56,172 bases of DNA from Bacillota bacterium (GTDB lineage: Bacteria; Bacillota; Sulfobacillia; Sulfobacillales; JAIMBI01), in assembly GCA_021820465.1 (NCBI GenBank), contig JAKADP010000007.1:1-56172 (forward strand), given 5' to 3'. A model generated the notes under the pieces. It was not told the DNA's origin and searched no databases. It worked only from the letters and a program-made list of their open reading frames with translations. Positions 16,838 to 20,087 of this stretch are shown piece after piece. Each line of letters starts with the position of its first letter. Positions within the stretch are counted from its first letter, which is position 1. The position numbers and the translations under genes are program-made.

Positions 16838-17488
16838 TCAGCTAGCCGCCACCTGACGAATCTTCTCCAGCAGGGCGCCCTCAGGCACCGCCCCGACTAC
16901 CTGCTCCTCGCCGTTCACCAGCGTCATCGGCACGCCCATGACGCGGAACCGCTGGGACAGCCGCATAAAGCTCTGCGCATCCACCATGTCGGCCGTAACG
17001 TGCTCCGGGTTGACCCGGGCCATCTGCTGAGCCAGGCGAACTGCCTGGGGGCAGTAGGGTCAAGTGGGGGTAACAAATACCTCCAGGTGAAGCGGCCGCG
17101 TTAACTGCGACAGGTAGTCCCGCGCCGCCGCGCTCAGCTCCGGGGGTGTGTCGGTGGACAAATCTCGCAGGGTCTGCAGCATGGGGCCAAATTCGTGGCC
17201 GCCCGGGAAGCCCAGATACCGGATGCCCGTGTCGTCCCCATCCACACTGAATGTCGTAACGACACTCTCCAGGTCGTCCGCCGTCTCCGGAGCTAGGGGC
17301 TCGGGACGCTCGGCCTTCACCGCCACCACCACCTTGGGATTGATGGCGCTCAAGTCGCGCCACAGCTCTTCCACGGCGTCGGAGGCCGGGTTTCCCGCCA
17401 CGGCGTGGACATGGACCGTCACCGGCTTGTCCAACCCGTCCAGAAACTGCTGCACCTCTGCCTTCACATCATCGGTCATCAAGCTCAT
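16838..17488 (-). CDS. Protein disulfide oxidoreductase with an in-frame TGA, predicted selenoprotein (UPYC)
   Basis: This is one frame of 217 codons interrupted only by TGA at 17060-17062 (codon 143). The N-terminal thioredoxin-fold half lacks CxxC but has the family's DGDDTGIRYLGFPGGHEFGP. The second half reads LEVFVTPT-TGA-PYCPQAVRLA, then ADMVDAQSF, VMGVPMTLVNG and VVGAVPEGALLEKI, all typical of PDO/glutaredoxin-like two-domain oxidoreductases whose motif is TPTCPYCP. TGA thus replaces the first, nucleophilic Cys. A SECIS-like hairpin follows. Automatic annotation would give a truncated 142-residue protein and a spurious second ORF. The ATG at 17488 follows GGGGGAGAAGGAG. The alternatives, nonsense mutation or base-call error, are less likely given the precise position and hairpin. 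Confidence 0.82.
17024..17054 (-). promoter_or_regulatory. Bacterial SECIS-like hairpin after the TGA codon
   Basis: On the minus strand CCAGGC-AGTTC-GCCTGG forms a perfect 6-bp stem with a 5-nt loop. An outer CTGC/GCAG helix extends it across an internal loop. The apical loop begins 17 nt after the TGA and has G among its first two bases. This meets the published bacterial SECIS criteria (16-37 nt to the loop, G at loop position 1 or 2). SelB would bind here. Confidence 0.72.
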
Positions 17489-17521: not shown

Positions 17522-18145
17522 CTACCCCACCGGCGCGGTCGGATGCCGGCCCGCCAGCCACAGCGCCATGCCGCCGCGCACGTTGGCCACCTGGTAGCCC
17601 CGGTCTGCCAAAAATGCCGCGGCCGCCTGCGAGCGGTTGCCGTGCGCACACACCAAGGCGTAGCGCCCGTTCGCCTCCAGCGCGCCCGCGCGGTCGGGCA
17701 GCTGGTTCAAGGGAATGGTTCGGGCACCGGGAATCACTCCGGACCGCCATTCGTACGGCTCGCGCACATCAATCACGGTCCACTCGCTCAATTCTCTCGC
17801 CAACTGGTCCGCGGTAATGTCCGGCACAGACACCAGACGGAGACCCTGAGCCTGCCACGCCTCGGCCCCGCCGTCCAGCACAGAGACGGACGCCACGCCC
17901 GCCTCTTGCAATGCGCGCTGCGCCGCCGCTCCCACCACCGCGTTGTCCGCCAGCACGGTCACGGGGATGGCGCCTTGGCGGTCGATCCAGCTCTTCACCG
18001 GCGCCGCCCAGCCGTGCTGGGCGTACGGCGCCGACAGACTGTGGGCGACGTGTCCCCGCGTATAGGCGGCGCCGGGCCGCACGTCCAGCAAGAGCCGGCG
18101 GCCGGCGGCTGCCTCGCTCATCAGTTCCTCACCGGTGCCCGTCAT
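17522..18145 (-). CDS. Tandem-rhodanese sulfurtransferase
   Basis: The 207-residue protein has two rhodanese-like domains. The first (LLLDVRPGAAYTRGHV) has VLADNAVVG where the active-site loop should be and no cysteine, so it is inactive or structural. The second (VIDVREPYEWRSGVIPGARTIPL) has the full persulfide-forming loop CAHGNRS. Such proteins transfer sulfane sulfur between thiols, cyanide or enzyme persulfides. The ATG overlaps the stop of the metallo-hydrolase gene (ATGA) and follows GGGAGG, and the gene lies 33 nt before the selenoprotein. The order resembles CstB-like persulfide systems, with domains on separate proteins. Confidence 0.87.
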   Translation of the reverse strand: MTGTGEELMSEAAAGRRLLLDVRPGAAYTRGHVAHSLSAPYAQHGWAAPVKSWIDRQGAIPVTVLADNAVVGAAAQRALQEAGVASVSVLDGGAEAWQAQGLRLVSVPDITADQLARELSEWTVIDVREPYEWRSGVIPGARTIPLNQLPDRAGALEANGRYALVCAHGNRSQAAAAFLADRGYQVANVRGGMALWLAGRHPTAPVG

Positions 18146-18978
18146 GGAGTCACGCCTCCCTTTACCCCTCCCGATTGGAGCCAGGGCGCCATCAGCGGCG
18201 CCGGCGCGGCCGCGTCGGCGGCCGGCGGCTTGGCCGCCCCGAGATTGACTTGGCGCAGGCGCTCCGCGTCGGGCGGCGGCGGCTTCAGGAGTGCCAGCTG
18301 CTGGTCTACAAACGCGGTCGGCTCCTCCAACATCAGCATGCGGTTGAAGCGCCGCTCGTAACCCACCGTCGAGCTGGGCTTCTTGCTCATGAACAGGCCG
18401 CCGCACGGCGACGATCCATAGTGCGCCGGGTGCACCTCCGTGAAGTCCGGCAGGCTGAGAAACCGCCGCACACTGTGAAACTGGTCCAGCGCGGCCGCCC
18501 GGATCTCCTCCGGGTCGGCGTCGCCTAGGTCAGGCCGCCCCACATCGCCCACAAACAGGCTGTCGCCGGTTAGGACGACCCAGGGGTCGTCGCCGCGCAG
18601 CGTATCGCGCACCACGAGCGAGATGCTGTCGGGCGTGTGGCCGGGGGTTTCCCAAACCGTCACGCCCACAGAGCCCCACCGAATCTCATCGCCGTCCCGC
18701 ACCGGAGCTGTGGGAAACGCCGCCGCGGCCCGATGGCTCAGCGTGACCGGCACATTCACCGCTGCCGCCAGCTCCTGGGCCGCCGACGCGTGATCCGCAT
18801 GCACGTGTGTCTCCACCACCCACCGAATGGCGAGGCCGGCCTCCTGGGCTGCCAGCACGTAGGCTTCGGCGCCCACCGCTCCCAAGGCATCCACCACCAT
18901 GGCGCTGCCCTCTAGGTCGTCGCCCAGGAGGTACGAGCTACACCCCAGCGTGGGGTCGCGCAACACTTGCCAAAACAT
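18142..18978 (-). CDS. ETHE1-like persulfide dioxygenase (metallo-beta-lactamase fold)
   Basis: Enzymes of this family oxidise glutathione, CoA or other low-molecular-weight persulfides to sulfite using a mononuclear iron. The 278-residue product has the metal motif THVHADHAS (H58, H60, D62, H63), the PGHTPDSISLV histidine, LTGDSLFVGDVGRPDL and the HPAHYGSS histidine. GDVGRPDL is characteristic of ETHE1/BlrB types. The ATG at 18978 is preceded by GGGGGTGA; upstream in-frame codons lack conservation. The adjacent tandem rhodanese supports persulfide chemistry. The thiol substrate is unknown; in a Bacillota it could be bacillithiol or CoA. Confidence 0.85.
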   Translation of the reverse strand: MFWQVLRDPTLGCSSYLLGDDLEGSAMVVDALGAVGAEAYVLAAQEAGLAIRWVVETHVHADHASAAQELAAAVNVPVTLSHRAAAAFPTAPVRDGDEIRWGSVGVTVWETPGHTPDSISLVVRDTLRGDDPWVVLTGDSLFVGDVGRPDLGDADPEEIRAAALDQFHSVRRFLSLPDFTEVHPAHYGSSPCGGLFMSKKPSSTVGYERRFNRMLMLEEPTAFVDQQLALLKPPPPDAERLRQVNLGAAKPPAADAAAPAPLMAPWLQSGGVKGGVTP

Positions 18979-18992
18979 CGCAATCACCCCCA

Positions 18993-19008
18993 ATACCCTC
19001 GTGGGCAT
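18993..19008. promoter_or_regulatory. Degenerate second ATACCC-N4-GGGCAT site before the dioxygenase
   Basis: ATACCC-TCGT-GGGCAT differs from the better site at 19482-19498 by one base in an arm and a shorter spacer. It lies 15 nt upstream of the dioxygenase ATG and may be a second binding site for the same regulator. Weak evidence alone. Confidence 0.3.
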
Positions 19009-19052: not shown

Positions 19053-19451
19053 CTAGTGGGCCGCTTCCTGAATAGCGGCCGTAAGCAGCGATTCGACCTC
19101 GTTGGCCAGTGGCTCCAGCGCAGGATCCCCCAGCAGCTCCGTCATGAGGCGGGGCCGCTGCAACCCAATGACGGTGCCTTGGGTTTGGCCGTCCGTATAC
19201 ACGACAATTTTGCACGGCAGGAAGTAGCCCACCTGCTGGTTGGTCGTGAGCGCCTGCTTGGCCCGCGGCGCACTGCACACCTCCAGCACATGGAAGGGCA
19301 GTCCAGGCTCCAGCCCTTTCTCCACAAGCTTCTCATTGATGTCCAAATGCCACAGGACCCCAAACTGATGCGCCTGGAGCCGCTCGGTCACGGACTGAAT
19401 GGCCGCATCCACGGACTCGCGGGTTGTCACGGCCACGAAGTTTTCCGCCAT
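19053..19451 (-). CDS. DUF302 family protein
   Basis: The 132-residue cytoplasmic protein matches DUF302: VAVTTRESVDAAIQSVTERLQAH at the start, HLDINEKLVEKG, HVLEVCSAPRAKQAL (family xxCxPxxA motif), and GYFLPCKIVVYTDGQTQ with the conserved LPC. The biochemical role of the family is not known, but it often sits with sulfur-oxidation and rhodanese genes. The ATG at 19451 has GGAGGG 8 nt upstream. It is the first gene downstream of the ATACCC inverted repeat and lies 74 nt before the persulfide dioxygenase, so the five genes could form one transcript. Confidence 0.85.
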   Translation of the reverse strand: MAENFVAVTTRESVDAAIQSVTERLQAHQFGVLWHLDINEKLVEKGLEPGLPFHVLEVCSAPRAKQALTTNQQVGYFLPCKIVVYTDGQTQGTVIGLQRPRLMTELLGDPALEPLANEVESLLTAAIQEAAH

Positions 19452-19481
19452 CACGCATCCCTCCTCGCTTCATGGTACTAC

Positions 19482-19498
19482 ATACCCCCCACGGGTAT
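19482..19498. promoter_or_regulatory. CsoR/CstR-like operator ATACCC-N5-GGGTAT
   Basis: A perfect 6-bp inverted repeat, ATACCC-CCCAC-GGGTAT, lies 31 nt before the DUF302 start. CsoR-family repressors (copper-sensing CsoR, persulfide-sensing CstR) bind sites with a C-tract/G-tract bounded by AT, of the form ATACCC...GGGTAT. Given the persulfide enzymes downstream, a CstR-like regulator is the best guess; no csoR/cstR gene is in the window. Confidence 0.55.
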
Positions 19499-19577: not shown

Positions 19578-20087
19578 CTAGGGCCTCACCCAGCCCGCCA
19601 CGCGCACGCCGCCATAGTCGTGGCCCACGTGTCGCGACGCAATGCTGACAAAGGCCAGCGGCGCGGGCCCGGGGTTGAGCACGCGATGGGCCCATCCGGC
19701 CGGCACCAGCGTCTGCACACCCGCCCGCAGCGCCACGGACTCCACCAACCCGCTGCGCGTCGCCCGCTCCAAAAGGCCCTCGCCCGACACCACGGACACG
19801 TATTCGGGTCCGTCCGGGTCGTGATGAAAGTGCCCCTTGGTGTGAAAGGGCTCGTCCCCAATCCTGCCGGCCATCAGCAGGGTCAGGCTCACATCCAGAT
19901 CGGTGGAGCCAGCCCCTTGCGGCGGCCAGGTGTATACCTCATAGATGACCGGGTCCGCCCCATCGGCCGGCTGGCCGGCGAAGAAGGCCCTCATGTCGGA
20001 CCAGCGCCGCTCGGCGCGGTGCGCTGCGGCGGCGGCTCCCGCCTGCCACGCCGGGAATGCGCTCGGATCCAAGTAAAACGCGTCCAC
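19578..20087 (-). CDS. Cupin-type phosphoglucose isomerase
   Basis: The 169-residue protein has the single-cupin fold of the archaeal-type glucose-6-phosphate isomerase family. Cupin motif 1 is FHTKGHFHHDPDGPEYVSVV with the HxH and Glu metal ligands; motif 2 is PAGWAHRVLNPG with the last His. LTLLMAGRIGDE before motif 1 is also typical. These enzymes interconvert glucose-6-P and fructose-6-P using a bound metal. The GTG at 20087 follows GGAGGGAT. It is on the same strand as, but 127 nt from, the DUF302 gene, so cotranscription is uncertain. Confidence 0.83.
   Translation of the reverse strand: MDAFYLDPSAFPAWQAGAAAAAHRAERRWSDMRAFFAGQPADGADPVIYEVYTWPPQGAGSTDLDVSLTLLMAGRIGDEPFHTKGHFHHDPDGPEYVSVVSGEGLLERATRSGLVESVALRAGVQTLVPAGWAHRVLNPGPAPLAFVSIASRHVGHDYGGVRVAGWVRP

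Follow-up and report, generated by a model that had tools for sequence, protein, structure and literature searches.

According to the available extracts of PMC7533328, the CsoR-family repressor ScCsoR of Streptomyces coelicolor binds a 16-bp ATACC-n6-GGTAT element next to genes for persulfide dioxygenase and rhodanese, and polysulfide causes its release. This circuit (CsoR-PDO-rhodanese-TauE) resembles the locus analysed here in its CsoR-family repressor, 16-bp operator, dioxygenase and rhodanese targets and the presence of two sites at one promoter. It differs in that the ScCsoR cysteines, at residues 37 and 66, occupy positions X and X+29, whereas those of the protein class considered here occupy X and X+24, while the operon described below adds genes for a DUF302 protein and a UGA-containing protein disulfide oxidoreductase (PDO), with the candidate repressor gene unlinked in the genus of the window. 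CstR of Staphylococcus aureus and Streptococcus pneumoniae (7mq1-7mq3) and YrkD of Bacillus licheniformis likewise combine a CsoR fold lacking the metal histidine with regulation of sulfane-sulfur genes (extracts of PMC9918477). However, alignment with 7mq1 places a Cys at X+29 and an Asn at X+25 in the S. pneumoniae protein (SpnCstR), while the X+24 class has a Cys at X+24 and none at X+29. TTHA1953 of Thermus thermophilus, a CsoR-family protein encoded away from its targets, similarly acts as master regulator of sulfur oxidation and has a pair of redox cysteines, but these are residues 39 and 68 (X+29), its motif is TACNNTACNNNNGTANNGTA and, in the extracts available, it controls Sox rather than Hdr (PMC10318464). 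The type 2 copper CsoR operators share with one of the sites described here (19482) both the spacing and the TAC/GTA dyad bounding C- and G-tracts, but are distinguished by the nine-base spacer (N9) of the tabulated Streptomyces sites and by their copper targets (extracts of PMC3902906).

The window, i.e. the whole 56,172-nt stretch of DNA analysed, is contig C66 of genome G000 (2.88 Mb, 96 % complete, 165 contigs). Two palindromes precede genes of a sulfur operon in this window (Table 1), and both the perfect inverted repeat and the partial copy before the dioxygenase gene were found where a sequence-only reading had placed them. The distance of 31 nt to the first gene given in that reading was not reproduced, with 27 nt separating the main site from a GTG at 19454 and 30 nt from an ATG at 19451, of which the ATG, preceded by AGGAGG, is the likelier start. 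The main site displays the TAC/GTA inverted repeat around two short C/G tracts that is a trait of type 2 CsoR operators. The 16-bp TAC-N8-GTA dyad of the ScCsoR-like sulfane-sulfur operator is absent from the window, where the 19482 site has an N9 spacer and the 18993 site an N8 spacer with a GCA arm. When two mismatches are allowed, the N5 and N4 dyads (N9 and N8, respectively, when counted between TAC and GTA) each match twice in the window, against 0.69 and 0.72 matches expected by chance. With such near-chance counts, the 56-kb window by itself proves little. In the genome scan for further copies suggested in the sequence-only reading, the exact N5 site occurs once in G000, and a single mismatch adds one further place, equal to the reversed control. 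The N4 form, one mismatch being permitted, occurs four times in G000.

Table 1. Palindromes and operon genes of the window, with the CsoR-family genes of genome G000
Feature	Location	Strand	Context	Remark
Main site ATACCCCCCACGGGTAT, ATACCC-N5-GGGTAT (= TAC-N9-GTA)	19482-19498		5' of DUF302 gene	both 6-bp arms perfect
Second site ATACCCTCGTGGGCAT, ATACCC-N4-GGGCAT (= TAC-N8-GCA)	18993-19008		14 nt before MBL-fold gene	one arm mismatch
DUF302 protein (PF03625)	19053..19451	-	first gene after site	
MBL-fold protein (PF00753)	18142..18978	-		persulfide-dioxygenase-like, as judged from context and motif
Two-rhodanese-domain protein (PF00581)	17522..18145	-	start overlaps MBL gene stop by 4 nt	
Protein disulfide oxidoreductase (PDO), thioredoxin-like, TIGR02187 family	16841..17488	-		in-frame TGA at 17062-17060
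CsoR L001			adjoins transporter-like gene	Cys-His-Cys
CsoR L002			adjoins copA (P-type ATPase with CxxC repeats)	Cys-His-Cys
CsoR L003	G000:C76:18328-18564		unlinked, near dnaA, beside aldehyde-dehydrogenase-like gene	Cys at X and X+24 only

A DUF302 homologue is encoded in 43/61 genomes, and the best-scoring thirty of forty-four DUF302 matches, including the window itself, served as loci for conservation analysis. With no more than one mismatch allowed, twenty-six ATACCC-N4-GGGTAT sites fall in 18/30 of these loci, against a mean of 0.12 (maximum 1) for fifty-nine permuted-arm palindromes, with the remaining twelve loci lacking a near-perfect N4 site. The sole N5 match in the same thirty loci is the site in the window, a count that 7/59 permuted arms equal or better, and no sites were found there with N3 or N6 spacing. 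Across the sixty-one genomes, exact N4 sites number 79 versus 7 for the reversed pattern. The sister species G001, G002 and G003 carry an N4 (TAC-N8-GTA) dyad orthologous to the 19482 site, and in the alignment of G000 to G003 this dyad stands out within an otherwise diverged upstream region. Furthermore, G001 and G003 carry a perfect ATACCC-N4-GGGTAT at the counterpart of the second site. The orthologous operons thus carry the site, whose absence there would have spoken against the operator proposed in the sequence-only reading. The consensus operator is a conserved 16-bp TAC-N8-GTA dyad at the sulfur promoters of relatives across the order. That reading had taken the N5 site as the main form and the N4 copy as degenerate, an order which is reversed here, with the N4 copy in the sulfur register and the N5 site off-register, with metal spacing.

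That the palindrome represents a chance dyad, or terminates transcription of the cupin gene lying upstream (19578-20087), is very improbable. Although the match in the window alone does not exceed chance once mismatches are admitted, this explanation is largely refuted by the order-wide conservation relative to the permuted controls. The site also recurs in another gene setting, where divergent genes flank it, and no T-run follows 3' of the 19482 site in the window sequence. It is the conservation in orthologous loci, rather than the window statistics, that confirms the palindrome as genuine.

Of the four N4 sites in G000, for which the reversed control gives one, two are located at sulfur genes. 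One N8 dyad with a single changed arm base (G000:C122:5300-5315; L154 4001-4016) lies just before a dsrE-hdrC-hdrB-hdrA operon, and the dyad also precedes the dsrE-hdr operon in G001 and G003 (L099 4044-4059 and 4230-4245). DsrE, HdrC and HdrA were named by inspection, while HdrB was named on the basis of a domain search with the G001 orthologue (PF02754). No sulfur gene is evident at the N4 sites C98:4541 and C35:12031, which may have arisen by chance. The former is a perfect site (L096 4541-4556; G000:C98) near an aldolase-like gene, and is also found in G001 and G003.

In several relatives the site adjoins a csoR gene. It separates two divergent sides in G008 and G027, with the PDO, rhodanese and MBL-fold genes on one and csoR and DUF302 genes on the other (PDO-rhodanese-MBL <- site -> csoR-DUF302), while in G009 the order is PDO-MBL-DUF302 <- site -> csoR. 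The site likewise adjoins a csoR gene plus sulfur genes in G005 and G007, and a perfect site precedes a different rhodanese gene in G004 and G006. The class-level relative G048 encodes a CsoR with the CstR pattern (L047) beside its DUF302 gene. Given the conservation of the site and the csoR genes adjoining both it and sulfur genes, a CsoR-family operator governing a persulfide-type operon is well supported by the relatives.

Three csoR-family genes (PF02583), all above the cut-off, are encoded in G000 (Table 1), so that the family on which the earlier proposal depended is present. None of the three proteins has the CstR pattern (a Cys at both X and X+29 without a His at X+25), and the search for a csoR/cstR gene suggested in that proposal led instead to L003 as the likely partner, whose cysteines at X and X+24 place it outside CstR. 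Of the proposed CstR/CsoR-like operator, the CsoR family and the persulfide-type process are thus retained on the basis of the relatives, while the CstR assignment is not. The X+24 class comprises twenty-nine distinct proteins, all without Cys at X+29 and, with the exception of the divergent member L044, without His at X+25 (28/29). They form one clade (98/86), within which the subclade of L003 is weakly supported (84/73); a member of this subclade in G037 adjoins both the DUF302 gene and another csoR of the X+24 class. One X+24 gene was found in G000 (L003), one each in G002 and G003, and two in G001. L003 reads LLAGQ where the class has RIEGQ. Its AlphaFold model (mean pLDDT 86.8) retrieves SpnCstR 7mq3 as the first Foldseek match, with a probability of 1.0 but an E-value of 0.018, followed by other CsoR-family structures. 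No dyad occurs at the L003 gene itself, and the rhodanese and persulfide dioxygenase neighbourhood seen for the X+24 class in relatives is not shared by this gene. The unlinked L003 is probably the partner of the window sites, although the assembly, with 165 contigs and a completeness of 96 %, may lack a further regulator. No description of an X+24 CsoR class was found in the literature searched, a search lying outside the two main CstR papers.

Two other kinds of CsoR protein were rejected as partners. The copper CsoR L002 has the Cys-His-Cys fingerprint and a copA neighbour, but its own promoter is devoid of the window dyad. The Cys-Tyr-Cys (X, X+25, X+29) CsoR-family proteins of G001 and G003 (L101 and L109), whose genes neighbour one for a P-type ATPase, are missing from G000 and G002.

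The length of the spacer goes with the class of CsoR, N8 accompanying non-metal and N9 metal (Cys-His-Cys) proteins. Within 400 bp of an X+24 csoR, the N8 dyad was found at 13/27 loci, at least four of which had been picked for the site (L044, L057 and L063 fetched by the N4 pattern; L135 with a site near), and the N9 dyad at none; the remaining fourteen loci have no dyad within this distance. These twenty-seven genes represent the twenty-nine distinct proteins after merging of near-identical ones. Within the same distance of Cys-His-Cys csoR genes, N9 was found at 8/37 loci and N8 at none (Fisher p = 4.9e-6 for the split, although the loci are related and the events thus not independent). A second set, fetched by protein alone and mostly from Actinobacteria (80 of 573 loci, 74/80 classifiable), has N9 at 52/69 metal-type loci and N8 at one, and N8 at 3/5 non-metal loci and N9 at none. 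This division agrees both with the TAC-X9-GTA form of the Streptomyces copper CsoR sites in the extracts of PMC3902906 and with the 16-bp ScCsoR element. The non-metal CsoR proteins at L226 and L221, from an Acidimicrobiales genome and Paenibacillus, have Cys at X+29 and an N8 dyad nearby. No statement of a spacing rule was found in the literature searched, to which the two main CstR papers did not belong.

Relative to G001 and G003, the window carries one extra base (G/C) within the C/G run, lengthening the spacer from N8 to N9. As a result of this base, the 19482 site has metal spacing at a sulfur promoter. It is unlikely that the site is, or has become, a copper or metal CsoR operator through which the metal CsoR of the cell controls the first gene. 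The N9 spacing at the metal-type loci and in the published Streptomyces copper sites would fit such a role, as would locus L208, which carries ATACCCCCCATGGGTAT, one base off the window site. However, the sister species show N8 at the same place, the csoR-copA promoter of the genus has a CCCACCCCGGGTGGG-type element and no N9 dyad, the other metal csoR promoter is also without an N9 dyad, and no linkage was seen that supports copper control of the sulfur genes. Capture of the site by the copper CsoR of the genus is unlikely because the promoter of the latter bears another kind of element. This element, located 5' of csoR-copA (L113; G000:C139), replaces the TAC/GTA dyad in G000 to G003. More likely, the 19482 site represents a sulfur operator that has been weakened or altered, or else the extra base is an assembly error.

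A further explanation is that the lineage does possess the regulon, while both window sites have decayed, through the insertion in one and the change of GTA to GCA in the other, leaving the operon weakly regulated or constitutive. Indeed, neither site matches its intact counterpart in G001 and G003, and in the related TTHA1953 system one base added between the half-sites weakens binding approximately 10-fold (extracts of PMC10318464). Such decay is nevertheless doubtful, considering that the insertion has left its flanking arms perfect, the gene of the candidate repressor is intact, an N8 site with a single altered arm base remains at the hdr promoter, and the C/G run could be an assembly error.

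The preferred reading, held with good though not full confidence, is that a CsoR-family (DUF156) repressor of the sulfane-sulfur operon and, in this genus, of dsrE-hdrC-hdrB-hdrA uses both palindromes as operators. Counting against it are the unlinked position of the L003 gene and its lack of a dyad, the weak support for its subclade and its LLAGQ motif, the incomplete assembly, the metal spacing of the main site and the loss of one GTA from the second, and the twelve DUF302 loci and fourteen X+24 csoR loci that are without a site. The reduced repressor would bind the dyad over the promoter, and per- or polysulfide would modify or link the cysteines at X and X+24, thereby releasing it. Its predicted targets would be the DUF302 protein, the MBL-fold dioxygenase, the rhodanese and the selenocysteine (Sec)-containing PDO and, in the genus, also dsrE-hdrC-hdrB-hdrA. 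The N9 copy at 19482 would represent a one-base-insertion variant, bound more weakly, or selectively, relative to the sister N8 sites. The pairing of repressor and site, the derepression and the sensing of persulfide are inferences.

There appears to be an even chance that the Sulfobacillales harbour an undescribed X+24 class of CsoR sulfur sensors, together with an N8/N9 code separating the paralogues, and that the species of the window is a natural plus-one mutant. If so, the second cysteine lies at X+24 instead of X+29, a shift that would place a cross-protomer di- or polysulfide elsewhere in the tetramer, and a single base pair of operator length (TAC-N8-GTA versus TAC-N9-GTA) prevents sulfur and metal paralogues of CsoR from being confused, with the window species altered in this code at one promoter. 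The spacing would provide a rule, readable from sequence, by which sulfur and metal CsoR operators can be told apart, and the repressor class named here, in which the cysteines are arranged in a new way, is directly testable. One predicted regulator would also link the detoxification of persulfide to sulfur oxidation through Hdr in these sulfur bacteria.

The last gene of the operon in Table 1 encodes the PDO, which scores below the TIGR02187 family cut-off when its N-terminal half alone is scored. Its in-frame TGA corresponds to the first position of a (U/C)-P-Y-C motif, and this position is TGA in twelve genomes and Cys in two (seventeen rows, some of them duplicates and some not spanning the position). 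A hairpin lies directly 3' of the TGA. An Rfam search of the operon region at a lax threshold gave a single match, a meaningless miRNA under its gathering score. G000 also encodes SelB (338.9 bits; cut-off 242) and tRNA-Sec (67.8 bits; gathering score 47). With the TGA in place of a conserved Cys, and with both SelB and tRNA-Sec encoded in the genome, the PDO of the window is predicted to be a selenoprotein. The NCBIfam short name of the family, PDO_seleno_TRX, indicates that a selenocysteine PDO is an already known kind of selenoprotein.
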